A stretch of DNA of 64,000 bases from NCBI RefSeq assembly GCF_002846335.1, contig NZ_PJMQ01000001.1, positions 1,240,001 through 1,304,000 on the forward strand, given 5' to 3'. Made by a program: the position numbers and the translations under genes. The notes under the pieces were generated by a model, which saw nothing but the letters and a program-made list of their open reading frames with translations, was not told the origin of the DNA and made no database searches. Below, piece after piece: positions 49,584 to 64,000 of the stretch; the first letter of the stretch is position 1, and every line of letters begins with the position of its first letter. Source of the DNA: Janthinobacterium sp. 61. Lineage in GTDB: Bacteria; Pseudomonadota; Gammaproteobacteria; Burkholderiales; Burkholderiaceae_D.

Positions 49584-50060
49584 ATGGTAAGGCAGGCAGG
49601 CGAGGATGCATCCGAGCAAAAAGTCATCGACGACATCGCCACGCATGGCTGGCATGGCGTCCATATCAGTGCTGATGAAGAAGGTCCCGGCTATGCCTTC
49701 ACCATAGGGGCTGGCCACAGCTTTGGCCAGCCCGAATTTCTCATCATGGGCTTGCCGCGCGCCATGGCCCATCAGATACTTGACCTGGCGCTGGATGCCG
49801 TGCGCAGCGGCGCCATCACGGATTTCGCGGCCACCACGGACGTCTTGCTGGAAGGCCATCAGTGCGCCTTCGTGCGCGTGCCCGTCGAGCAATACCGCAA
49901 CTATGTGGGCTATGCGCGCTGGTACTACCAGGGCGACGATTTTACCTTGTACCAGATCGTCTGGCCGTCGCGTGATGGCCATTTCCCGTGGCAGGCGCAG
50001 GCCAGTGCGCAATATGTGGATAGCCAGCCCCTGCTGGGACCGGCGCCGCTGGCGGCATGA
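49584..50060 (+). CDS. DUF4262 domain protein
   Basis: A 158-residue protein; ATG at 49584 after AAGGTGG. The DUF4262 pattern starts with VIDDIATHGWHGVHISADEEGPGYAFTIGAGHSFGQPEFLIMGLP and continues with HQILDLALDAVRSG. The later part YARWYYQGDDFTLYQIVWPSRDGHFPW is also conserved. The function is unknown; homologues are frequent near toxin-immunity and phage-like genes as well as alone. The last four bases overlap the next gene. Confidence 0.85.
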   Translation: MVRQAGEDASEQKVIDDIATHGWHGVHISADEEGPGYAFTIGAGHSFGQPEFLIMGLPRAMAHQILDLALDAVRSGAITDFAATTDVLLEGHQCAFVRVPVEQYRNYVGYARWYYQGDDFTLYQIVWPSRDGHFPWQAQASAQYVDSQPLLGPAPLAA

Positions 50061-50500
50061 CGGCAGGGACGACGGCCAGGGTTTGTACCGATACGGCTAC
50101 CCTGTGCGTGTTCGACCCGGCGCTCTTGCGTCACAAGCTGGACGATGACTGCGACTGGTGGAGCATCCCCGGCGCGGAACTGGCGGCCGTGAATGCGGGC
50201 CAGGTGGCTTTTTTTAACGTGAGCGGCGACGGCGCGTATGACCTGGTAGTGCACGCAGAACTTGCCGAGCCGCACGTGAGCGTGCATCTGGCCGTGGTCT
50301 CGGGCCGCGTCTTCATCGGTGCCGGGGAAGACGTCACGGGCGGCGGCCTGGAACCGGACACGGCATTTGGCGGCCTGTTCGTGGACGTGCCCGTGGGCGG
50401 CTGCCGCGTGCAGGCGCGCCGCGATGGCGACTTGATCAGCCTGGCATTCGTGCCCGATGCGCGCAGCAGCAATGCATTTGGCGACCTCGTGCGTATCTGA
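50057..50500 (+). CDS. DUF6386-type protein
   Basis: A 147-residue protein starting within the stop of the DUF4262 gene. It begins TDTATLCVFDPALLRHKLDDDCDWWSIPGAELAAVNAGQVAFFNVSGDGAYDL, typical of the DUF6386 family, and is beta-rich to the end (VDVPVGGCRVQARRDGDLISLAFV). The function is unknown. The coupled start suggests that it acts together with the DUF4262 protein. Confidence 0.7.
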   Translation: MTAGTTARVCTDTATLCVFDPALLRHKLDDDCDWWSIPGAELAAVNAGQVAFFNVSGDGAYDLVVHAELAEPHVSVHLAVVSGRVFIGAGEDVTGGGLEPDTAFGGLFVDVPVGGCRVQARRDGDLISLAFVPDARSSNAFGDLVRI

Positions 50501-50531
50501 TCCCCATTCATTCTCTTGCTATCGACCCTGG

Positions 50532-52451
50532 CTAGGCATCCAGGCGCGCCACGCCCGCACCTTGCCGCCGGTCCAGGAACAGGCTGTTGCCGTGGATTTT
50601 TTTCGCCTGCTTCTTTGCTTCGGCCGCCTGCGTGGCAATCTGATGGTGGGTGTAGTACTGGTGCGCCTCGACCTTGATGACGCCCAGGGATAAGCTGATC
50701 AATGAATAAAACACTTTCTTGCCCTGCCGGTCTTCGCTGATGTAGCCGCCCCGTTCGCAGTCGCTTGTGCTGTAATAGGCGAGAATGGCGGCGGCAAAGC
50801 GCTCCAGGATGGCCTGGCAGCGCGTTTCCCAGTCTTCGCTCTGGAACAGAATCATGAAATCGTCGCCGCCGATGTGGCCGATGAAGTCGCGGTTCGGGTC
50901 GCAATGGCTGCTGAGGATTTCCCCCGTCAGCTGGATCACGTCGTCACCCTTGCGGTAGCCGTATACATCGTTGAAGGGCTTGAAGTGGTCGAGGTCGCAA
51001 TAGCAGACCCAGAAACGGGCACCGCTGTGCAGCAGGCGGTCGATATGCTCGTTAATGGGCACGTTGCCGGGCAGTTGCGTCAGCGGGTTGGCGTAACGCG
51101 CTGCATTGATCTGCATCTGCGTGATTTCGCGCATCAGGTCGTGGCCCGTGCCCATGCCCAGGTAGCGGCCCTCTTCGGTGATGATGAAGCCGTTGAACAG
51201 ATGGTGGGCATCGGACTGCACCATGGTGTAGCTGAGTTCCTGCAAGCTCGTCTCGTGATCGGCAATCAGGGGCGTGGCATCCATGAACAGGCTGCATGAT
51301 TTCTTGCCATACAGTTCGCGCTGGTAGGGACGGGCGAAGTGGTCGATCATCTCGAAGCGGCTGATCAGGCCCAGCGGCACGCCGTCATCGACGACGGGGA
51401 TGATCATCAACTTCGGTTCTTTCAGGAAGATATCGTATACCTCGTTATTATTGCGCTGCGGCGAGACGGCCGCCACCCGGTGCAGCAGCTTGCGGATGCT
51501 GGAGCCGTTCTTTTCCAAGCTGCTGCGCTGCGGATACACGGCCACGCCGTTGCGCCCCAGCGCCTGCACCACTTCGGCCGGCAGCGCGCGAGCCGGCACC
51601 GCGTTGGGCCGTCCCAGGTGATAGCCTTGCCCGAAGGCCACGCCCAAGTCGCGCAAGACCAGCAATTCCGTCTGCGCCTCGATGCCTTCGGCAATGACCA
51701 GGGTGCCCGATTTTTCCGCGATTTCCTGGATCGAGCGCACGAACTGCAGTTTCACGGGATCATGATTGATGCCCTGGATGAAATGCATGTCGATTTTTAC
51801 GTATTCCGGGCGCAGTTCCGACCACAGGCGCAAGCTGGAAAAGCCTTCGCCCAGGTCGTCGATGGCGATCTGGAAACCCATATTGCGGTAATGTAGCACC
51901 GCTTCGCGCATCAGCTCGTAATCGTAGGTGGGTTGGTTTTCCGTCAGCTCGATGATGACACGGTCCGGATTGATGCCGATGTGCTCGATGTATTCCAGCG
52001 TTTCGCCATGGCGGGCATTGCGTAGCAGCAGGCATTCGGGGCTGACATTGAGAAACAGCTTGCCCGGTAGCTGCAGTTCGGCAAAGCGTTCGAGCACCAC
52101 TTGGCGGCACAAGTGTTCCACTTCCAGGGTCAGGTCATGCGCGCGCGCCACCTTGAACAGATTCATCGGCGCGTGCAGGGGGCTGTCGGACGGTCCCCGT
52201 ATCAAGCCTTCGTAGCCGATGATGTCGCCGCTGTGCATGTGGATGATGGGCTGGAACAGTGCGCTGAGTTTGCGGCCCGCCAGGATCTCGTGCAAGGCAT
52301 CCGTTCCTTCGATGGGCATGGGGGCCGATGGCGGCTTCAGGTAAGCCACATTCGATGGCATCGCGCCGGGCGGCGCGGCGGTGGTGGAAGGGAGGGCGAG
52401 AGTGTGCATAGGAGGATGTGGCGGCACGGCCTCTGGACGGGCCATGAACAT
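50532..52451 (-). CDS. EAL-CBS-GGDEF cyclic-di-GMP protein
   Basis: A 639-residue protein without membrane helices. The EAL domain covers about 50-300: the motif reads EGL (GYEGLIRG), with ELTEN, DDLGEGFSSL, YVKID and AEGIE retained, so phosphodiesterase activity is plausible. A CBS-like pair covers about 310-445, followed by a GGDEF domain whose signature reads GGDDF (HIGGDDFMIL). GGDDF may weaken cyclase activity. The layout EAL-CBS-GGDEF matches a known family that adjusts cyclic-di-GMP levels. The start at 52451 is the frame's first ATG; ATG 52445 is also possible. Confidence 0.9.
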   Translation of the reverse strand: MFMARPEAVPPHPPMHTLALPSTTAAPPGAMPSNVAYLKPPSAPMPIEGTDALHEILAGRKLSALFQPIIHMHSGDIIGYEGLIRGPSDSPLHAPMNLFKVARAHDLTLEVEHLCRQVVLERFAELQLPGKLFLNVSPECLLLRNARHGETLEYIEHIGINPDRVIIELTENQPTYDYELMREAVLHYRNMGFQIAIDDLGEGFSSLRLWSELRPEYVKIDMHFIQGINHDPVKLQFVRSIQEIAEKSGTLVIAEGIEAQTELLVLRDLGVAFGQGYHLGRPNAVPARALPAEVVQALGRNGVAVYPQRSSLEKNGSSIRKLLHRVAAVSPQRNNNEVYDIFLKEPKLMIIPVVDDGVPLGLISRFEMIDHFARPYQRELYGKKSCSLFMDATPLIADHETSLQELSYTMVQSDAHHLFNGFIITEEGRYLGMGTGHDLMREITQMQINAARYANPLTQLPGNVPINEHIDRLLHSGARFWVCYCDLDHFKPFNDVYGYRKGDDVIQLTGEILSSHCDPNRDFIGHIGGDDFMILFQSEDWETRCQAILERFAAAILAYYSTSDCERGGYISEDRQGKKVFYSLISLSLGVIKVEAHQYYTHHQIATQAAEAKKQAKKIHGNSLFLDRRQGAGVARLDA

Positions 52452-52735
52452 GTTGCCTATAGTAAAGAAGATTTATGACAGCTTGATGAAACGTATTAGC
52501 TTTTGATAATGTTTCTTTCCTACCTGTCAGTTTGCCGATTCTCCCCAAAAACGTGATTTACCACGGCGTTTACTGTGGAAGTCCCAAACAAAAAACGGCA
52601 AATCCCGCAGATAACTGTGCTTTAAAAGTGGCAATCCGCGCTATGATTTCTCTTGGCGAAAGTCAACATGGGCAGCCGCCACGCGTGTTTGCGCGGCCTG
52701 CTTTCCTCGACATCCAACAATGAGACAAACAACCC

Positions 52736-54925
<2,190 letters not shown>

Positions 54926-54933
54926 AACACGGC

Positions 54934-54978
54934 AGGTCGGATTAGCGCGGCATCGCCGTGCGTAATCCGACACCACCT
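54934..54978. repeat. Palindromic intergenic repeat, copy 1
   Basis: AGGTCGGATTAGCGCGG and GTGCGTAATCCGACACC form the arms of an imperfect palindrome. The unit resembles the 'GTCGGATTA...TAATCCGAC' REP-like elements seen between genes in many proteobacteria. It follows the prolyl oligopeptidase stop. Confidence 0.7.
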
Positions 54979-54993
54979 GTCATGTCAGCACGA

Positions 54994-55036
54994 TGTCGGA
55001 TTACGCGGGGCTTTTCGCCCCGCTAATTCGACCTAC
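54994..55036. repeat. Palindromic intergenic repeat, copy 2, forming the end of the STM4011 gene
   Basis: TGTCGGATTACGCGGGGC and GCCCCGCTAATTCGACC pair around TTTTC. The second repeat of this pair includes the stop (TTA, 55001-55003 on the plus strand) and about ten C-terminal codons of the minus-strand radical SAM gene. Confidence 0.75.
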
Positions 55037-55900
55037 AGTCACAATCCTCGCCAGCACACCCTCCCCAAACAAGGCCTGAAACGGCAAATCCTTGCGCTGC
55101 GCATAGCCGATATAGCAATCGCACTTGAAGCGGGGGCAGGGCCGTTCCTGCAGCATGTCCTCCAGTTCATCCGCATACAAATTCCCCAGCCGCTCGGGCA
55201 CGAAGTGGCAGCGCGCCAGTTCGCCAGCGCCATCGACGGACAGCGACGCTTCGCCCGCCAGGCAAGGTTTGCCGCGTGAGGGAGACGGGCGGCGGTTTTG
55301 CGCGAACCACGGGTCGACGCCATCGAGCCAGGCCAGGTCTTGCTCGCTGTAGTAGCCGGGGCCACGGCGGTCATACGCGTTCAGCCACAGGTAGACGTGG
55401 GCGGGCAGGGCCGTGCGCAGGGCGCGGATGGCATCCAGGTGTTCATTCATTGCCACGACGCCCACGGAGTAGCGCACGCCCATGGCGTCCAGGCGCGCGC
55501 AGCGTGCGAGAAAACGGGCCAGTGTCGTCTGGTCCGGATGGTAGGTGCACCACAGGCCGATCTTTTCCAGCCCGTCCATGTTCTCCAGCCAGCCCAATGG
55601 GCCGGACAGATTCGTCTGCAGCGCCACCTGGCGCACGTGCGGCAGCGTTGCCAGGGTTTGCATGGCCGTACGGTAGTGGCGCCGCACCAGCGCTTCGCCC
55701 CAGGGCGTGAACAGGACACTGATGTTCCGGTTTTGCGCCGCCACCCAGCTGGTGAAGCGTGCCACTTCGCGCGCATCGCGGGCCAGCGCAGCGCGGCTGT
55801 CGCGTTTTTTGGCAAACGGGCAGTAGCCGCAGGCGTAATTGCAGCTCGATAGCGTGCCCCGGTACAGCAGGGACAGCGTTGCTGCCGGCGCTGTCAGCAC
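55001..55900 (-). CDS. STM4011-family radical SAM protein
   Basis: A 299-residue radical SAM enzyme, the last gene of a five-gene operon. The SAM cluster motif is C20-NYA-C24-GY-C27. Further Cys toward the C-terminus (GKPCLAGEASLSVDGAGELARC, then CPRFKCDCYIGY) look like ligands of an auxiliary iron-sulfur cluster, as in SPASM-type enzymes that modify peptides. Substrate and product are unknown. The final residues (RISGAKSPA) are encoded by a palindromic repeat. The start overlaps the STM4012 stop by seven bases. Confidence 0.85.
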   Translation of the reverse strand: MLTAPAATLSLLYRGTLSSCNYACGYCPFAKKRDSRAALARDAREVARFTSWVAAQNRNISVLFTPWGEALVRRHYRTAMQTLATLPHVRQVALQTNLSGPLGWLENMDGLEKIGLWCTYHPDQTTLARFLARCARLDAMGVRYSVGVVAMNEHLDAIRALRTALPAHVYLWLNAYDRRGPGYYSEQDLAWLDGVDPWFAQNRRPSPSRGKPCLAGEASLSVDGAGELARCHFVPERLGNLYADELEDMLQERPCPRFKCDCYIGYAQRKDLPFQALFGEGVLARIVTVGRISGAKSPA

Positions 55901-57273
55901 GCCTGGCCGCCTTCGGCCATCAGCGCCCGCACCGTATCGGACGCCAGCCAGGGGCCGATGGTATCGGCGTAGCTGTAGCCCCGCTCATTCAGGCGCAGCA
56001 GCGGGCCATCCTCTTGCACCAGGGCCAAGGAGTGCAGCTCGGCCAGTTGCGGCAAGTCTTCTTCGCAGCGCGTGCCGAAGCGCGCCATGTAGGTGTCGCG
56101 GTCCAGGCCCGGTTCGGTCAGCAGCGACTGGATCACGTAGCGGCGGCGCTGTTCTGCTTCATCAAGCTGGTAGCCGTGTTCTGCCTGCGCGAAGCGCGCT
56201 TCATCGAGCGCCAGATACTGTTCGATGATGTTGATGGTGTCCGTGCGCGCCACTGCGTACTCGCTCGAATAATGGAGGTTGGCCGTGTAGGAGCGGGCGC
56301 CCGCGCCCAGGCCCACCATGCCATCGTTCTGGCAGCAGTACGATGGCCCGTTTTGTTCCGGCGCATGGGGCGCGCGGAACATGCGCATCGAGACCTGCTC
56401 GTAGCCTTGCGCGCGCAAATGGTCGCGCGCGGCCGCGTACAGGGCCAAACGGCTGTCGCCGTCCTGCGCCAGCATGATGGGATTGAGCGATTGAGCGCCC
56501 TGGCGGCGCGCCACCTTGCCGAGGCCCGTCTGCTCGCGCACGTACAGCGGATACAAATAGATTTCCTCGGGCGCGAAGGCCAGCGCGCTGTCGATGGAGG
56601 CCAGCAGGCTGGCCACGGTTTGCCCGGCGATGCCGTAGATAAGGTCCAGGTTCAGGGTCGGAAAACCGGCGGCGCGTATCAGGCCGATGGCGTGATGGAC
56701 GGTGGCGTTTTGCTGCGGCCGGGCCAGCGCGCGCATTTCGCCGGCGGCAAAACTCTGAATGCCCAGGCTGACCCGGTCGATGCCATGCGCGCGGCACACG
56801 GCCAGGCGTTCGGTGGTGATGGTTTCTGGCGACGCTTCGATGCCGGCCGGCGTGTGCTGCAGGTCGATGCCGAGGATATCGCGCGCGCCGCGCAGCAAGG
56901 TGTCCAGCTGCGCCGGCGACAGATAGGTGGGCGTGCCGCCGCCCAGCGCGAAGCGGGCAAAGCGCCGTTCGCCCAGTGCGCCGGCCAGGGCGCGCATCTG
57001 CACCAGCACTTGCTGCACGTAGCGCTCGACCATGTCGCCGCTTGGGCGGGCCATGGCGAACAGGTTGCAAAAGCCGCAGCGCATCTCGCAAAACGGGATG
57101 TGGATGTAGGCAAAGAGGGCGGAACGGTCTTGCTGCGCCCACAGTGGCGCGAGGGGCGCCGCCTGCGGCAAGGCGCGGTAGGCTGCCTTGTGCGGATAGG
57201 AGTAGGAATACGCCTGGTAGGGCGTGTGGCGCATGCGCTGCGCCAGGGTGCCAGGCTGTTCGGCTGGGTTCAC
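55894..57273 (-). CDS. STM4012-family radical SAM protein (HemN-like)
   Basis: A 459-residue radical SAM enzyme of the coproporphyrinogen-oxidase-like group. The cluster motif HIPFCEMRCGFCNLF gives C62, C66 and C69; GGGTPTYLS and ASPETIT are conserved in the HemN fold. The leader AYSYSYPHKAAYR is typical of STM4012. HemN itself is not expected here, because this subfamily always travels with STM4011-4015. The reaction is unknown. It overlaps STM4013 by four bases and STM4011 by seven. Confidence 0.88.
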   Translation of the reverse strand: MNPAEQPGTLAQRMRHTPYQAYSYSYPHKAAYRALPQAAPLAPLWAQQDRSALFAYIHIPFCEMRCGFCNLFAMARPSGDMVERYVQQVLVQMRALAGALGERRFARFALGGGTPTYLSPAQLDTLLRGARDILGIDLQHTPAGIEASPETITTERLAVCRAHGIDRVSLGIQSFAAGEMRALARPQQNATVHHAIGLIRAAGFPTLNLDLIYGIAGQTVASLLASIDSALAFAPEEIYLYPLYVREQTGLGKVARRQGAQSLNPIMLAQDGDSRLALYAAARDHLRAQGYEQVSMRMFRAPHAPEQNGPSYCCQNDGMVGLGAGARSYTANLHYSSEYAVARTDTINIIEQYLALDEARFAQAEHGYQLDEAEQRRRYVIQSLLTEPGLDRDTYMARFGTRCEEDLPQLAELHSLALVQEDGPLLRLNERGYSYADTIGPWLASDTVRALMAEGGQAC

Positions 57274-58112
57274 GGTGGGGACTCCTTGGGATGTGTATCG
57301 GGGGCGATGAGGAAGTGCGCGTACGGCACGTTCCAGACGCTGTCATGGGCCACCCTGTGGCCCCGGTAACCGTCTTCGCCATACGCGCTGCCGTGATCCG
57401 AGCAGACGATGGCAAACGTGGGCGCGCGCGCGGCGCAGGCGGCAAACAGTGGCGCGAGCGCCTGGTCGACATAGCGCAGGGCCGCCGCATGGCTTTCCAG
57501 GCAGTCGGCGCGGCAGCCGGGCAGGTAGGCGCGGTTCGGCGTGTGCAGGGCCGCCACGTTGATGAACAAGAAGGTGCGCTGATCGCTGTCCGCCAGGCGG
57601 GCTATGGCCAGTGCCACCTGTTTTTGCGTCGAATGGCGGCTGGCCACGCCCATGCCGGCGTTCCAGTGGCTTTCCTGGAACAGCGACGGCAGCACCGTGC
57701 CCAGCGCCGTCTGTTTATTAAAGAAACCCACGCCGCCGATGCAGATGGTGCGGTAGCCGCGCGCGGCCAGCGCGGAGGGAAGGTCCGCTTGCTCGAACGC
57801 AAACGTGTGCGGCGAGGTGGTTTCGCTGCCCGCGAAGGCGGAAGCGAACAGGCGCGGATGGCGGCCCGGTGCGGCCGGCGTGGGCAAAAAACCCGCGAAG
57901 AAGGCCTGGTGCGCCGCATACGTGAAGGTCGCAGGCGAGTGGCGCCGTTCCCAGCCTCCCGGTGGTAAAAAACGCCCCAGCACGGGCAGTTCGCCTGCTT
58001 CATGCAGCGCTTGCGCCACGTCAAAGCGCAGGGTGTCGAGCGTGATGAAGACGATGTCGTGGCTGCCGACGATGGCGTGCATGTCAGGGATGGTCGGTGG
58101 TTCTTTAGGCAT
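57270..58112 (-). CDS. STM4013-family sulfatase-like hydrolase
   Basis: The ATG at 58110-58112 gives 280 residues; the frame could extend but would run through STM4014. It has the alkaline phosphatase/sulfatase superfamily pattern: DIVFITLDTLRFDVA (metal Asp and Thr nucleophile) near residue 25 and CSDHGSAYGEDGYRGHRVAHD for the second metal. No formylglycine Cys/Ser motif is seen, so a phosphatase or phosphodiesterase-like reaction is more likely than a sulfatase. It overlaps STM4014 by eight bases and STM4012 by four. Confidence 0.82.
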   Translation of the reverse strand: MPKEPPTIPDMHAIVGSHDIVFITLDTLRFDVAQALHEAGELPVLGRFLPPGGWERRHSPATFTYAAHQAFFAGFLPTPAAPGRHPRLFASAFAGSETTSPHTFAFEQADLPSALAARGYRTICIGGVGFFNKQTALGTVLPSLFQESHWNAGMGVASRHSTQKQVALAIARLADSDQRTFLFINVAALHTPNRAYLPGCRADCLESHAAALRYVDQALAPLFAACAARAPTFAIVCSDHGSAYGEDGYRGHRVAHDSVWNVPYAHFLIAPDTHPKESPP

Positions 58113-59205
58113 GTTGGCTGAAATGAGAGAGCTGCGCCGTGTACGTATCCGCGTCATGCCACAGCAGGCCGGGCAGCAGGTCGCCAAAGGCATTGGCTTC
58201 GAGCACGCGGGCCTGGCCGTTGCTCACGACAAGGTCGTAGCCTGTCACATGGCTGGCGGGGAAGGCGCGCGCCGCTTGAGAGCTTGTGTCCTCCAGTGCG
58301 CGCATGTCGGCGTCGTTCAGCAGGCTGGAAGCGTCGCCGCGCCGGTTGTCGAGGTGCAGATTGGTCACCATGTGTTGTCCGATGCGCGCCACGCGGTGCG
58401 CGGGTTGGCCGGCTACGGTCACCACGCGCAGGTCGTAATGGCTGTCGCCGCAGCGGGGTTTGTTCAGCCACGCTTCCGCGTACAGTTCCTGCGCGGCCAG
58501 CGCATCGACCAGGGCCGCGATGTCGTGTTGCGTCTCGTAGCGCGCCATGCGCTTGACATTGAACAAGCGTGTCTGGCCATCCGCCTGCGATAAGGTGGCC
58601 GAGGTGGTGGCTTGCTGCCGCCCGGCCTTGTTCCTGCGGTAGGCGACGACGCCGGACGCGGACGAGCCGTAGCGCGGCTTCAGATACACGCGGTCCAGGT
58701 CATGCTGGTGCAGCAGCGACTGCAGGTGCGCGTAGCCGTGCACGGGGCCGAGCAGGGTGGGAATGGCGACGCCATGCGCGGCCAGGTGGCGCTGGCAGGC
58801 CAGCTTGTCCGTCATGAGGCGGATGTCGGCCGGCGCATTGACCACGCGCGCCTGCGGCAGCTCGGCCAACTGCGCGGCCAGGGTCGCCATGGCAGACGTA
58901 AAACCGGCAAACCAGGCATCCATGGCCAGCAGTTCGCCATGCGCGGGCGCGGCGACCGGCGGACGGTCCAGCAGCCGGCAGCCTGCCTGCAGCAACAGCA
59001 AATGGGCGGCGGGATCGTCGCCGGGAGGTTCGATTTTCAATAGGCCGGGATGCGCCAACGCGACATTGAGCAAGGCGGGCTGACTTAGCCAGTCGCGCCA
59101 TTCCAGCACCTGCGCGGGCGGCAGGCGCAGCTGCGCGCGCGCCGCCTGCATCAGGCGCACGCGCTTGCTGCCAGCGGTCGCCAGCAGGGTGAGATGCGTG
59201 TGCAA
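58105..59205 (-). CDS. STM4014-family ATP-grasp-like protein
   Basis: A 366-residue protein with features of an ATP-grasp ligase: VYLKPRYGSSASGVVAYR (nucleotide-binding Lys and glycine loop) and VLEANAFGDLLPGLLWHDADTY (metal-binding Glu-Ala-Asn). ATP-grasp enzymes join a carboxylate to an amine or thiol. Here the partners are unknown. It begins 29 bases after STM4015 and overlaps STM4013 by eight bases. Confidence 0.8.
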   Translation of the reverse strand: MHTHLTLLATAGSKRVRLMQAARAQLRLPPAQVLEWRDWLSQPALLNVALAHPGLLKIEPPGDDPAAHLLLLQAGCRLLDRPPVAAPAHGELLAMDAWFAGFTSAMATLAAQLAELPQARVVNAPADIRLMTDKLACQRHLAAHGVAIPTLLGPVHGYAHLQSLLHQHDLDRVYLKPRYGSSASGVVAYRRNKAGRQQATTSATLSQADGQTRLFNVKRMARYETQHDIAALVDALAAQELYAEAWLNKPRCGDSHYDLRVVTVAGQPAHRVARIGQHMVTNLHLDNRRGDASSLLNDADMRALEDTSSQAARAFPASHVTGYDLVVSNGQARVLEANAFGDLLPGLLWHDADTYTAQLSHFSQHA

Positions 59206-59234
59206 GGAATGAAACTCCGTTTACTTGACCACGA

Positions 59235-60161
59235 CTACTCGCCCACTGCCACGTAACGGTAGCTTTCACCGTCGTCTTCGTCCGCTTCCTGGGGATCGTC
59301 CAGCACCACCTCGAAGGGCAGCGCCTTCAGTTTCGCCTGGTTTTCCTCGGAAATGTAGTGGTGCGACAGGTCCAGGCGCGTCAAGCCGCCCAGCTGCGTG
59401 TGATTGAGCACGGCCACGGCGCCCAGGTCGCCGATGGTGCCCAGCGACAGGTCAAGCGTGGCGAGCTGCGCCACCAGCGGTTCTTCCGCCAGCCAGACGG
59501 CCAGGTCGTCGGCGATTTCCGCGTCGCGCAGGCCCAGGTAACGCAGGGAGGGCACGGTCAGCTGTGCCAGCACCTTGCGGTACAGGTCGACGTCGCCCGA
59601 AAAGCCATAGTCGTCCGTGCCCAGCCACAGTTCCAGGTGCTCCAGCTGCGGCATGCTCGATTGCGCCAGTGCTTCGGCGATCTTTTGATCGAGTCCGCCC
59701 GCTTCGATGATGAAGCGACGCAGGTGCTGGTGGGCGAACGGTTCGATGACAAGTTCATTGCCGCCGCGGATACGCAACTCTTCGAGCTGAGGAAAGGCAT
59801 CCAGCAGGGGCTTGTAGCTGCCTTGCACGATCCACGAGATTTCGCATTCCTCGTACGTCATGTCGCCGATGAACAGGGCGCGCAAGCTGGGCAGTTCGGC
59901 GGCGTGGGCGATCAGCGCGGCCATCACCTCGTCGGCGCCCGATTCGTACGGGTCGCCCCACATGCCGATGATCAGCGCTTCGAGCGCATTCTTGTCGGCC
60001 TTGCCGAGGAAGCCGGCGATCAGCTCGTCCATCTTGCGCTCGTCGTCGTACTCGAGCGACAAACGGTAGACGATGTCGGGCGAGGCGTCGAACGGCAGGT
60101 CCGGGTCGTACTGGACGACTTTCTTGTTGTGGAAGGTGGTGGTGCTGTCGGAAATCGTCAT
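59235..60161 (-). CDS. STM4015-family leucine-rich repeat-like protein
   Basis: A 308-residue acidic protein, first gene of the operon; GGAG precedes the ATG by about nine bases. Leu-rich units recur from about residue 85 to 280 (LPSLRALFIGDMTYEE, FPQLEELRIRGGN, MPQLEHLELWLG, VPSLRYLGLRDAE, LATLDLSLG, LTRLDLSHH), suggesting a curved LRR scaffold. The C-terminus, after a run of Asp/Glu (DDPQEADEDDGES), ends in YRYVAVGE. It may bring the other enzymes together or itself be the substrate. Confidence 0.82.
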   Translation of the reverse strand: MTISDSTTTFHNKKVVQYDPDLPFDASPDIVYRLSLEYDDERKMDELIAGFLGKADKNALEALIIGMWGDPYESGADEVMAALIAHAAELPSLRALFIGDMTYEECEISWIVQGSYKPLLDAFPQLEELRIRGGNELVIEPFAHQHLRRFIIEAGGLDQKIAEALAQSSMPQLEHLELWLGTDDYGFSGDVDLYRKVLAQLTVPSLRYLGLRDAEIADDLAVWLAEEPLVAQLATLDLSLGTIGDLGAVAVLNHTQLGGLTRLDLSHHYISEENQAKLKALPFEVVLDDPQEADEDDGESYRYVAVGE

Positions 60162-60252
60162 TGCTAAGGCTCCATGAAAGACAGTGAAAATCTTGTCTAA
60201 TCCAAAATCTTAGCATGGGCGAAAGAGCTTATTGCACACTGCTGAAAAGCAA
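60162..60252 (-). promoter_or_regulatory. Promoter region of the STM4015-4011 operon
   Basis: This 91-base spacer lies between the HTH-cupin gene (same strand) and STM4015. On the minus strand TGC followed by TAAGAT (60212-60207) resembles an extended -10 element, about 45 bases before the start. No strong -35 or terminator is seen, so readthrough from the regulator gene is also possible. Confidence 0.3.
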
Positions 60253-60828
60253 CTATCTATGGATGACCACTAATAAGGCCTTGCCTTCGGTCTTGCCCAG
60301 GTTGCGGATGATATGCGGCTGGTCCGCCGGATAGCGTGCCGTACCGCCATTCTTGACCTTTTTCTTTGCCGCGCCCACTTCCAGTTCCAGGTTGCCGTGG
60401 ATGACCGTCAAATGCTCGGTGGTGCCCGGATCATGCGGCTGCGACGCCAGTTCGCCACCCGGTGCCAGGGTCACTTCATACCATTCATATTTGCCCGCCA
60501 GTTCCATCGGCCCCAGGATGCGCAGCACGTAGCCCGCATGGTCGCCGGGCAGGGTGGGGGTTTCGTGGGCGTCCGTGATGCGGATGGTTTCCACGGCTTT
60601 TTCCGCGCTGGACAGCAATTCGCCGATCTGCACGCCCAGGGCGTTGGCCAGGCGCCAGGTGATGGCGATGGTGGGATTGGCTTTTTCGCGCTCGATTTGC
60701 GACAGCATGGACTTCGAGACGCCCGCGATGCGCGACAAATCCTCGAGTGTCAGGCCGCGCGCCAGGCGCAGCCGTTGCAGGGTGGCACCCACTTCAGGGG
60801 GAGAATTGGTCGAAACACTGGTTTTCAT
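60253..60828 (-). CDS. HTH-cupin transcriptional regulator
   Basis: The ATG at 60826-60828 gives 191 residues. The N-terminal XRE-type helix-turn-helix reads VGATLQRLRLARGLTLEDLSRIAGVSKSMLSQIEREKANPTIAITWRLANALGV (about 13-66), and a C-terminal cupin domain starts near 110 (WYEVTLAPGGELASQPHDPGTTEHLTVIHGNLELEVG). Such regulators bind a small ligand in the cupin. It is divergent from kbl across 220 bases containing nested inverted repeats, so it probably controls the threonine genes. It is also upstream of the STM4015 operon on the same strand and could affect that too. Confidence 0.85.
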   Translation of the reverse strand: MKTSVSTNSPPEVGATLQRLRLARGLTLEDLSRIAGVSKSMLSQIEREKANPTIAITWRLANALGVQIGELLSSAEKAVETIRITDAHETPTLPGDHAGYVLRILGPMELAGKYEWYEVTLAPGGELASQPHDPGTTEHLTVIHGNLELEVGAAKKKVKNGGTARYPADQPHIIRNLGKTEGKALLVVIHR

Positions 60829-60847
60829 CGGCGGGTGGCTTGCAAAG

Positions 60848-60902
60848 TTCAATAGGCTTGGGTAATATCCACTATATTGAATTTCAGTTCGACATAGTGG
60901 AT
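60848..60902. promoter_or_regulatory. Nested inverted repeats between regulator and kbl
   Basis: ATCCACTAT (60867-60875) and ATAGTGGAT (60894-60902) are perfect 9-base arms with an 18-base spacer. TTCAATA (60848-60854) and TATTGAA (60875-60881) are a second, overlapping pair. The location between divergent genes fits the operator of the HTH-cupin regulator. Confidence 0.55.
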
Positions 60903-61048
60903 TTTGAGGAAAAACACGGAAACGTGTAGACTTCAAACAGCGCTTCACGGTACAGCAAACTGCGCGCACCGGTCAAGCGGCCGCTCCCCCTATGACGGCT
61001 GAGGTCACCCGGCTACCACACATACAACAGGGACACACAAGGATCATC

Positions 61049-62272
61049 ATGAGCGAGCAAGCGAAGAACACCTTTTTCAGCGGTCTGCAACAGAATCTCG
61101 ATCAATTGCGCCAGCAGGGCTTGTACAAGCCCGAGCGCGTGATCGCCTCGCGCCAGGGCGCTGAAGTGGTGTGCGACGATGGCCGTACCCTGATCAATAT
61201 GTGTGCGAATAACTATTTGGGCCTGTCCGGCGACCTGCAAACGCAGGAAGCGTCTATTGCCGCTACGCAAAAATACGGTTACGGCCTGTCGTCCGTGCGC
61301 TTCATTTGCGGCACGCAAACCGTGCACAAGGAACTGGAACAGGCGATTTCCGCTTTTCTGGGTACCGAGGACACGATTTTGTACGCGGCCGCATTCGATG
61401 CCAACGGCGGCGTGTTCGAGCCTCTGTTCGATGAAAACGACGCCATCATCTCGGACGCGCTGAACCACGCCTCCATCATCGACGGCATCCGCCTGTGCAA
61501 GGCTGGCCGCTACCGCTATGCGCACAACGACATGGCGGACCTGGAAGTGCAGCTGCAAGCAGCGATTGCCGCCGGCAAGCGCCATAAAGTCATCGTGACG
61601 GACGGCGTATTCTCGATGGATGGCACGATTGCGCAACTCGACAAGATCTGCGACCTGGCCGACAAATACGGCGCGCTGGTGATGATCGACGAATGCCACG
61701 CCTCCGGCTTCATGGGCGCGACGGGCCGCGGCACGCACGAACACCACAATGTGATGGGCCGCATCGACATCATCACGGGCACCCTGGGCAAGGCACTGGG
61801 CGGCGCCATGGGTGGCTTTACCTCGGCGCGCAAGGAAGTCATCGACACGCTGCGCCAGAAATCGCGCCCGTACCTGTTCTCGAATACCCTGGCGCCATCG
61901 ATCGCAGGCGCCTCGCTGTCGGTGCTGGAGCGTCTGGCCAAGTCGACCGAGCTGCGCGACCGCCTGCATGAAAACACGGCTTTCTTCCGCAGCGAGATCG
62001 AGCGCATCGGCTTCACCATCAAGCCGGGCACGCATCCGGTGGTTCCCGTGATGCTGTTCGACGCCCCCGTGGCGCAGAAGTTCGCCGCCCGCCTGTATGA
62101 ACTGGGCGTGCTGGTGACGGGTTTCTTCTACCCGGTCGTGCCGATGGGCCAGGCCCGTGTCCGCGTGCAACTGTCGGCTGCCCATACCCGTGAACAGCTG
62201 GTGCAAGTGCTGGCCGCCTTCGAGCAGGCCGGCAAGGAACTCGGTCTGCTGACCACTACCACTACCAATTAA
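61049..62272 (+). CDS. kbl: Glycine C-acetyltransferase (2-amino-3-ketobutyrate CoA ligase)
   Basis: PLP enzyme that splits 2-amino-3-oxobutanoate with CoA to glycine and acetyl-CoA, the second step of threonine breakdown. The ATG at 61049 follows AAGGA, giving 407 residues (E. coli Kbl has 398). Motifs: CANNYLGLS near the start, HASIIDG, DECHASGF (Asp that holds PLP) and the Lys in GTLGKALGGAMGG. It ends 20 bases before the dehydrogenase gene. Convincing family match. Confidence 0.95.
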   Translation: MSEQAKNTFFSGLQQNLDQLRQQGLYKPERVIASRQGAEVVCDDGRTLINMCANNYLGLSGDLQTQEASIAATQKYGYGLSSVRFICGTQTVHKELEQAISAFLGTEDTILYAAAFDANGGVFEPLFDENDAIISDALNHASIIDGIRLCKAGRYRYAHNDMADLEVQLQAAIAAGKRHKVIVTDGVFSMDGTIAQLDKICDLADKYGALVMIDECHASGFMGATGRGTHEHHNVMGRIDIITGTLGKALGGAMGGFTSARKEVIDTLRQKSRPYLFSNTLAPSIAGASLSVLERLAKSTELRDRLHENTAFFRSEIERIGFTIKPGTHPVVPVMLFDAPVAQKFAARLYELGVLVTGFFYPVVPMGQARVRVQLSAAHTREQLVQVLAAFEQAGKELGLLTTTTTN

Positions 62273-62292
62273 CAAGAACCCAGGAAAATAGC

Positions 62293-63258
62293 ATGGAACG
62301 CATCTTAGTCATAGGCGCAAACGGCCAAATCGGTAGTGAGTTGGTGGGCGCGCTGGCGCAGCAGCACGGCGCGGACAACGTCATCGCCAGCGACATCGGC
62401 ACGAACAACCTTTACCAGGCCAAGCGCTATGCCCAGCTGAACGTGCTGGACAAGGACGGCCTGGCGAAAATCATCGCCGACGAAGGCATCACCCAGGTAT
62501 ACCAGCTGGCGGCCATGCTGTCGGCCACGGGCGAGGCGGCGCCATTGAAAGCGTGGAGCCTGAACATGGATGGCTTGCTCAATATCCTGGAACTGGCGCG
62601 CGAGCGGGGCGAAGCGGGCAAGCCGCTGCGCATCTTCTGGCCATCGTCGATTGCCGCATTTGGCCCGAACACGCCGCAGGTCAATACGCCGCAAATGACG
62701 GTGATGGACCCGACGTCGATGTACGGCATCAGCAAGCTGGCCGGCGAACGCCTGTGCGAGTACTACTTCAACAAGTATGGCGTGGACGTGCGCAGCATCC
62801 GCTACCCTGGCATCATCAGCTATAAATCGCCTCCGGGCGGCGGCACCACAGATTACGCCATCGCCATCTTCCATGCGGCCTTGCGCGGCGAACGCTACGA
62901 CTGCTTCCTCGATGCGAACACCACCTTGCCGATGATTTACATGCCCGACGCCATCCGTGCCACCATCGAACTGATGGACGCGCCGGCTGCATCGATCCAG
63001 ATCCGTTCGTCCTACAATGTGGCCGGCGTGTCGTTCAATCCCGAGCAACTGGCGAAAGCCATCGTGCACATGGTGCCGGACTTCAAGATCAGCTACAAGC
63101 CGGACAGCCGTCAGGCCATCGCCGACAGCTGGCCGCAAAGCCTGGACGACAGCAAGGCCAGTGCCGACTGGGGCTGGAAGGCGCAGATCGGCGTCGAGCA
63201 GATGGTCACTGACATGCTGGCCAATGTCGATGCAGGGCAGCCGGCCAAGGCAGCCTGA
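62293..63258 (+). CDS. L-threonine 3-dehydrogenase, SDR/epimerase type
   Basis: Oxidises L-threonine to 2-amino-3-ketobutyrate with NAD+. The 321-residue protein belongs to the extended SDR (epimerase-like) group rather than the zinc-type Tdh of E. coli. It has the Rossmann loop GANGQIGSELV, the DIG/NNL cofactor end, the WPSSIAAFGP Ser segment and the YGISK catalytic Tyr-Lys. Its placement directly after kbl supports threonine dehydrogenase over a sugar epimerase. AGGAAAAT precedes the ATG. Confidence 0.9.
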   Translation: MERILVIGANGQIGSELVGALAQQHGADNVIASDIGTNNLYQAKRYAQLNVLDKDGLAKIIADEGITQVYQLAAMLSATGEAAPLKAWSLNMDGLLNILELARERGEAGKPLRIFWPSSIAAFGPNTPQVNTPQMTVMDPTSMYGISKLAGERLCEYYFNKYGVDVRSIRYPGIISYKSPPGGGTTDYAIAIFHAALRGERYDCFLDANTTLPMIYMPDAIRATIELMDAPAASIQIRSSYNVAGVSFNPEQLAKAIVHMVPDFKISYKPDSRQAIADSWPQSLDDSKASADWGWKAQIGVEQMVTDMLANVDAGQPAKAA

Positions 63259-63306
63259 GTCCCACACAAGCATTCATAAAAACATACTAATATAAAGAGA
63301 CACTAC

Positions 63307-64000
63307 ATGGATATGAGCGTATTTGACCTGTTCAAGATCGGCATTGGGCCGTCGAGTTCCCATACTGTGGGGCCGATGGCGGCGGCGCGGCGTTTTCTGG
63401 TCGAATACGGTCCGCTGGACCAGGTAGTGGGCGTCGAGGCGGCCCTGTATGGCTCGCTGGCGCTGACGGGTGTGGGCCATGCGACGGACAAGGCCGTCAT
63501 TCTGGGTTTGATGGGTGAAACGCCGCAAGACGTCGCGCCCGATGCGGTCGACAGCAAGCTGGCCGCCATCGAGTCGGCCGGTGAAATCGCGCTGCTGGGC
63601 ACGCATGTAGTGCCGTTTACGGCGGCCACAGGCTTGATCTGGCACAAGAGCGAGTCCCTGCCCGAGCACCCGAACGGCATGCGCTTTACCTTGAAACTGG
63701 CGGACGGCAGCCGTGTCGACAAGGTGTATTACTCGATCGGCGGCGGTTTTATCCGCGAAGCGGGCGAGGCGCAGGCCGAAGCGGCCGTGGAGTCGGCCGC
63801 CAGCGCCAGAGTTGTGTTTCCGTTCGACACCATGGAGCAGTTGCTGGCGCATGGCGTGGAAAGCGGCCTGTCGATTCCGGAAATGCTGCGCGCCAACGAG
63901 TGCGTCAAGCGCAGCGACGAAGAATTGAATGCTGGGCTGGACCGCATCTGGCAGGTCATGCGCGACTGCATCGCGCACGGCCTGGAAACGACGGGTAACC
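63307..64000 (+). CDS. sdaA: L-serine ammonia-lyase, N-terminal part (cut by window end)
   Basis: Converts L-serine to pyruvate and ammonia with a [4Fe-4S] cluster. The visible 231 residues cover the N-terminal beta-domain: FDLFKIGIGPSSSHTVGPMAAARRFL is the family signature. The cluster-binding Cys lie beyond the window. It follows the threonine genes by 48 bases, so glycine and serine arising from threonine could be used by the same operon. Confidence 0.93.
   Translation, partial: MDMSVFDLFKIGIGPSSSHTVGPMAAARRFLVEYGPLDQVVGVEAALYGSLALTGVGHATDKAVILGLMGETPQDVAPDAVDSKLAAIESAGEIALLGTHVVPFTAATGLIWHKSESLPEHPNGMRFTLKLADGSRVDKVYYSIGGGFIREAGEAQAEAAVESAASARVVFPFDTMEQLLAHGVESGLSIPEMLRANECVKRSDEELNAGLDRIWQVMRDCIAHGLETTGN

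Follow-up and report, generated by a model that had tools for sequence, protein, structure and literature searches.

Among described systems, those closest to the one considered here are the amino-group carrier protein (AmCP) pathways, LysW/LysX and LysW/ArgX, including those of Streptomyces secondary metabolism. As passages of PMC9303977 describe, AmCP systems activate the γ-carboxylate of a C-terminal glutamate and form an isopeptide bond to the building block; the cargo is modified on the carrier and then freed by hydrolysis. The LysW-type carrier is a small zinc-binding protein with three or four cysteines and an EDWGE tail, which is recognised by the GSWGR motif of the LysX and ArgX ligases, and one such system loses its function when the glutamate is mutated (passages of PMC10433800). 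The pearlin pathways, e.g. that to 3-thiaglutamate, likewise use a ribosomal scaffold, whose C-terminus receives the building block and bears it during modification (passages of PMC9303977 and PMC9016710). The present work concerns a five-gene operon, STM4011 to STM4015, in 64,000 nucleotides of Janthinobacterium sp. 61 (contig NZ_PJMQ01000001.1, positions 1,240,001 to 1,304,000; hereafter the window). We consider it fairly probable that STM4015, a leucine-rich repeat (LRR) protein, serves here as a carrier or substrate, whose terminal glutamate would be loaded by the ATP-grasp enzyme STM4014, and that two radical SAM enzymes and STM4013 act on the bound group.

An earlier reading of the window, made from the sequence only, had placed the five genes on one strand in the order 4015-4014-4013-4012-4011, with a 29-base gap and overlaps of 8, 4 and 7 bases. 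The open reading frames confirm the order and coordinates and reproduce the gap and overlaps, and all five proteins score above the curated NCBIfam cut-offs for the families that had been named (Table 1). To follow the association across genomes, an STM4013-anchored scan was run with one genome per species; it returned at least 574 related loci, of which the best 80 were kept and eight plasmid loci added, so that counts from the resulting 88 loci are biased to near relatives. All 88 carry at least part of STM4013, while STM4015 is found in 79, STM4014 in 80, STM4012 in 81 and STM4011 in 78, contig ends truncating some. All five families exceed 100 bits in 73 loci, and these complete loci hold all genes on a single strand in 71 cases and follow the strict order 4015(s)-4014-4013-4012-4011 in 66. 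In two further complete loci, both of Kitasatospora phosalacinea (L079, L088), STM4014 and STM4013 form one open frame with no intervening stop. Because the same order recurs in annotated records of Salmonella, Methylobacterium, Paenibacillus, Deinococcus and Streptomyces, as well as in cyanobacterial and Lysobacter-type loci, the association is not one of chance; its loss in most genomes was not observed.

Since that set is anchored on STM4013, each family was also counted independently in 147 Kitasatosporales genomes, where STM4015 exceeds its cut-off in 65, STM4014 and STM4013 in 63 each, STM4012 in 66 and STM4011 in 65. The five genes are inherited as a block, nearly all or none: the complete five occur in 63 genomes, none in 78 and a partial set in 6 (STM4015 only in G307 and G439, STM4011 only in G394, STM4011 with STM4012 in G426, STM4012 only in G354 and G409). 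The system is found in Proteobacteria, Actinomycetes, cyanobacteria, Deinococcus, Paenibacillus, Myxococcales and Chloroflexi, with a partial copy in Bacteroides. It is uncommon in cyanobacteria (STM4015 over cut-off in 10 of 194 genomes), and among 299 Pseudomonadota genomes STM4011 exceeds its cut-off in one, that of the window, where the family has a single match. Some loci are incomplete despite sufficient contig: L056 (downstream side only), L060 (a partial STM4012 far away) and L067. L061 holds 4013-4012-4011 only, L072 only 4011 and 4013, and L091 has no STM4011. The copy on the Bacteroides plasmid (L100) looks deleted: no STM4012 turned up there, only part of STM4013 is left, and STM4011 forms a fusion with a Cof-type HAD phosphatase.

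The C-terminus of STM4015 is among its best-conserved parts across phyla, with a consensus tail R-Y-x-x-V-[GSAT]-E, then stop, behind an acidic linker. The terminal glutamate is present in 100 of 101 complete copies (74 of 75 non-redundant) with a score of at least 180 bits. That threshold sets aside three of the 104 matches: a second copy in L048 and a fragment in L076, both ending in E, and an L082 open frame that joins STM4012 to the leading part of an interrupted STM4015. Distant tails keep the glutamate and little else, as in Salmonella (...MNAMYTE), Methylobacterium (...RSIAVSE), Bacteroides (...YYPMITE) and cyanobacteria (...RRRCSVAE, ...RHTALYE). Glutamate is also the last residue in 118 of 120 close homologues; the remaining two have 259 and 270 residues against 308 in the query, and the source marks one of them as partial. 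No such tail pattern ends any of 16287 other mechanical open frames in the same loci, nor was a comparable C-terminal residue seen in the four enzymes. The glutamate is not an artefact of gene overlap, given the 29-base gap in the window and its retention in 9 of 11 remote copies that do not lie beside STM4014. The LRR matches themselves are weak, all under Pfam cut-offs, and the family profile aligns with a solved structure from Bacteroides fragilis (PDB 2ra8, E 1.2e-73) through ...YSYPMIT, stopping one residue short of the expected glutamate. Separately, a GD-x3-EECEISW patch at residues 99-110 (about 59832-59867) is strongly conserved on the LRR domain in alignments A2 and A8, the latter of 50 of 68 representatives plus the window, with the oddest and all plasmid copies omitted; it is a candidate docking or active surface.

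In complete loci STM4015 is also the one member that multiplies. Among the 73 loci with all four enzymes it has one match in 57, two in 15 and six in one, with no enzyme duplicated in any of them; at L082, one of the two-match loci, both matches belong to one gene broken between two frames. Because of the near-invariant glutamate tail and the extra gene copies, STM4015 is likelier to be a substrate or carrier than a mere partner. In Actinomycetes extra copies lie far from the operon, and 15 of the 17 fetched keep the tail, the exceptions (L108, L109) sharing a different ending. In the genome of L108 (G439) the other four families all stay below cut-off. Any correlation between tail and enzymes is only suggestive, because the genome of L109 (G419) has the operon and G307 keeps two tailed copies with its enzymes below cut-off (a 53-bit STM4011 remnant). 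At five remote Actinomycete loci (L101-L105, in G321, G315, G305, G325 and G311) a tailed STM4015, ending RFIAVAE or RYIAVAE, adjoins a divergent STM4014 relative, with no radical SAM gene. This relative has lost most ATP-grasp residues and appears to be a pseudo-ligase or a reader of the tail, which suggests that carrier tails, loaded or free, may also be bound by a non-catalytic STM4014 relative. The L104 pair adjoins, in addition, a trypsin-like gene and one that is HAD-like by motif.

The sequence-only reading had seen in STM4014 an ATP-grasp-like protein with a nucleotide-dependent ligase fold; the present comparisons sharpen this to an enzyme of specifically the LysX/ArgX/RimK kind. Its predicted structure (mean confidence, pLDDT, 95.2) has an ATP-grasp fold nearest LysX/ArgX: in Foldseek and VIA comparisons ArgX with LysW ranks first, followed by LysX and RimK, the last trailing by about one Z unit or less. 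The RimK-RpsF complex and the graspetide ligase PsnB are also among the matches, PsnB below ArgX, LysX and RimK. All five PDB sequence matches are to LysX or RimK, though weak (E 6e-4 to 5e-3), and residues aligned with LysX catalytic positions are kept in 39 of 39 operon-type proteins (A7; 38 of 49 representatives plus the window), with roles that would follow by homology. STM4014 is below the NCBIfam cut-offs for both LysX_arch (13.2 against 275.6 bits) and rimK_fam (23.1 against 143.4), and the GSWGR motif is not present in it, the loop consensus being GSSASG.

The remaining enzymes point to radical and phosphoryl-type chemistry. STM4012 has an invariant CxxxCxxC (23 of 23 aligned; A6, 22 of 36 representatives plus the window) and matches HemN (4e-57) and the methyltransferase NocN (3e-36) in PDB profile searches; we take it for neither the heme enzyme HemN nor HemW, since it falls below both equivalog cut-offs (hemN 137.5 against 324.95 bits, HemW 146.9 against 205.4). 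In STM4011 the CxxxCxxC and C213, C231, C255, C260 and C262 are invariant (26 of 26; A5, 25 of 35 representatives plus the window). The sole PDB profile match is SkfB, across the SPASM part (E 7.5e-4), and the sequence has the second cysteine set of SPASM/twitch enzymes, its SPASM Pfam score being 14.7 bits, under the 21.5 cut-off. STM4013 belongs to the alkaline phosphatase superfamily by fold and by its metal-site Asp/His pattern, with a Sulfatase Pfam match and a predicted structure (pLDDT 91.1) resembling sulfatases, EptC/EptA-type enzymes and phosphonate hydrolase. At the nucleophile place, a threonine in F-T-x-x-x-H is invariant in all 37 sequences of alignment A4 (36 of 37 representatives plus the window) and is the likely nucleophile. 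Type I (formylglycine) sulfatases use Cys or Ser in C/S-x-P-x-R; with this motif, placed on STM4013 by eye, replaced by the invariant threonine, we do not take STM4013 for a type I sulfatase.

Relatives of these enzymes occur apart from the block as well. STM4013 paralogues at L119, L120, L095 and L099 lie away from the other four families; that at L119 adjoins a MoaA-like radical SAM gene, a NUDIX gene and a piece weakly like phosphohexomutase, and L120 has, by translation, a similar radical SAM gene. At L138 and L139 (G354 and G409) STM4012 exceeds its cut-off in genomes where the other families do not, and at L138 lies beside a DUF1152 gene and, by eye, a transporter-like gene; L139 looks alike.

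Taken together, these features can be arranged in one pathway. The LRR horseshoe of STM4015 would be a docking scaffold whose flexible tail displays the terminal glutamate. STM4014 would activate the glutamate carboxylate with ATP, most likely at the γ position, and link it to a small building block through the latter's amino group. The SPASM-type STM4011 and the HemN-like STM4012 would then rebuild the carbon skeleton on the carrier, and STM4013, with its putative threonine nucleophile, might remove or transfer a phosphate-type group. The ligation step draws on both sequence and predicted fold; the middle steps we infer from co-occurrence and enzyme types. As for release, no peptidase recurs among the neighbours.

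An alternative, which we regard as unlikely, resembles the chemistry of ribosomally synthesized and post-translationally modified peptides (RiPPs): the tail itself would be the core, residues of R-Y-x-x-V-x-E being modified by the radical SAM and ATP-grasp enzymes (a Tyr/Glu cross-link, for example, or a graspetide-type lactam or lactone), and the LRR domain and linker a giant leader, with the product remaining as a built-in cofactor or being cut off by a housekeeping peptidase. A conserved tail after a variable linker, several substrate genes at some loci, the kinship of the SPASM-type STM4011 with SkfB and the presence of PsnB among the fold matches all speak for such a scheme, and SkfB-type systems likewise combine a radical SAM enzyme bearing auxiliary-cluster cysteines with a dedicated protein substrate. 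On the other hand, only the glutamate is nearly strict. Position -3 is V in 92 of 101 copies, and position -6 is Y in 92, F in 5 and another residue in 4, with further cyanobacterial copies having R or H there; because the tyrosine is so replaced, chemistry like that of pyrroloquinoline quinone (PQQ) is disfavoured as well. Glycine at -2 in 50 of 101 leaves no general hydroxyl for a lactone, and PsnB ranks below the carrier-type ligases and RimK. The substrate here is, moreover, a folded LRR protein, and no protease or transporter is found among the recurrent neighbours.

Less probable still are two simpler schemes. RimK extends the C-terminus of the ribosomal protein RpsF, and STM4014 might similarly add glutamate or another amino acid to the α-carboxylate of STM4015 as a regulatory tag, with the radical SAM enzymes acting elsewhere; RimK is a relative in both sequence and fold, and its complex with RpsF is among the matches. 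That the ligase, the carrier and the two radical SAM enzymes almost always occur together suggests instead one pathway. RimK/RpsF is not known to have radical SAM partners, and ArgX and LysX rank slightly above RimK, though within the narrow Z difference given above. We find it equally doubtful that STM4015 is only a scaffold that gathers the enzymes, its tail bound but unmodified, while STM4014 makes a free small molecule. The pairing of tailed STM4015 with a divergent, tail-binder-like STM4014 that is hardly a ligase (L101-L105) would suit this, but if the tail served for binding alone, so strict a terminal glutamate (100 of 101 copies) beside variable residues would be surprising, and the operon-type STM4014 keeps the residues at LysX catalytic positions. 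A defence system can be dismissed: PADLOC matches STM4012 in part to PDC-M51A, a candidate model (residues 150-252, E 1.3e-6), and STM4011 weakly to pVip (E 0.015), both of which we ascribe to homology among radical SAM proteins; STM4015, STM4014 and STM4013 have no PADLOC matches.

Set against AmCP systems, the operon shares a conserved C-terminal glutamate on a dedicated protein, a dedicated ATP-grasp ligase with ArgX-LysW as its best fold match, and downstream enzymes that would likewise process the attached cargo (passages of PMC9303977 and PMC10433800). The AmCP carrier is small and zinc-binding with an EDWGE tail, whereas STM4015 is a 308-residue LRR protein with one cysteine and tails ending VGE, VSE or VAE (RYVAVGE and variants), and the ligase GSWGR has no counterpart in STM4014. 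AmCP (LysW) pathways employ a kinase, a reductase and a transaminase; here one sees radical SAM enzymes and no peptidase. The system is thus like LysW/LysX in logic, not a member of it, with a carrier fold and chemistry that would be new. The pearlin pathways offer an analogy in C-terminal attachment and on-scaffold modification, although the PEARLs (peptide aminoacyl-tRNA ligases) use aminoacyl-tRNA where an ATP-grasp enzyme stands here, and the scaffold here is a folded LRR protein.

The suggestion that the operon is an undescribed biosynthetic or protein- or peptide-modification system is partly borne out. The block is conserved and nearly all-or-none, no paper on the function of STM4011-STM4015 was found in literature searches, and no evidence arose that each enzyme has an independent known role. 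Two papers name the loci in tables, whose entries (a sigma54 site inside STM4013.S, and STM4015 listed for positive selection) do not concern function. The families themselves already have names, with curated NCBIfam models for all five; these are function-less, and the tail and the carrier/ligase reading are added here.

Table 1. Features of the operon and its surroundings, in window coordinates.
Feature	Position	Strand	Description	Basis
STM4015	59235..60161	-	308 aa LRR protein; proposed carrier/substrate	NCBIfam NF038076; 331.5 bits, cut-off 275
STM4014	58105..59205	-	TTG start; ATP-grasp ligase of LysX/ArgX/RimK type	NCBIfam NF038074; 334.9 bits, cut-off 175
STM4013	57270..58112	-	alkaline-phosphatase-superfamily hydrolase or transferase	NCBIfam NF038075; 400.1 bits, cut-off 250
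STM4012	55894..57273	-	HemN-like radical SAM enzyme	NCBIfam NF006067; 575.3 bits, cut-off 380
STM4011	55001..55900	-	radical SAM enzyme, SPASM/twitch-like second Cys set	NCBIfam NF038073; 371.8 bits, cut-off 200
STM4015 linker	59259..59300	-	variable, acidic; residues 288-301	alignments A2, A8; per-position entropy
STM4015 C-terminal tail	59238..59258	-	RYVAVGE	alignment of copies
Glu308	59238-59240	-	last STM4015 residue; proposed attachment site	conservation
STM4013 invariant Thr codon	57921..57923	-	T59, A4/A9 numbering, starting at base 58097	alignment A4
Prolyl-oligopeptidase-like gene	52736-54925	opposite to operon	downstream	below oligopeptidase B cut-off

The start of STM4013 is taken as the ATG at 58112, a longer form being possible from 58193. 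The 3' end of STM4011 enters an inverted GC-rich repeat, GGGGC...GCCCC, with TCGGATTACGC-type repeats nearby (window 54940-55060), and its final residues may be repeat-derived. Upstream on the same strand lies what we take to be an HTH-cupin regulator (60253-60969), and beyond it, on the plus strand, presumably kbl- and tdh-like genes, all named from their translations. Among the 22 largest neighbour clusters the flanking genes are shared by Janthinobacterium and its close relatives alone, and for this reason they are not counted as parts of the system. A conserved sixth gene was also sought: DUF6745 occurs in 24 and a small conserved partner in 22 of the 88 loci, mostly in Actinomycetes, and both are accessory. 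They adjoin the operon at, e.g., L097:5171-6635, L096 and L098, and outside Actinomycetes they occur in Deinococcus, Methylobacterium, Chloroflexi and one cyanobacterium (DUF6745 only). No riboswitch hints at a product: Rfam gave no match in window 50000-64000 and, in eight fetched loci, only a small RNA between typA and glnA in Salmonella.

The prospects seem evenly balanced that an LRR amino-group carrier, loaded by a LysX-like ligase and bearing cargo rebuilt by two radical SAM enzymes, represents a new class of carrier-protein biosynthesis, widespread, with the carrier copied up to six-fold per locus and a satellite pair whose dead ligase may read or store the loaded carrier. If so, carrier-protein amino acid biosynthesis would be joined to radical SAM chemistry, and the near-invariant terminal glutamate of an LRR protein would be explained. 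The earlier idea of protein or peptide modification would be narrowed to one residue of one protein, of which a solved relative is already available (PDB 2ra8), and the last residues of STM4015 would be the peptide to examine, turning five function-less families into a question for one experiment.

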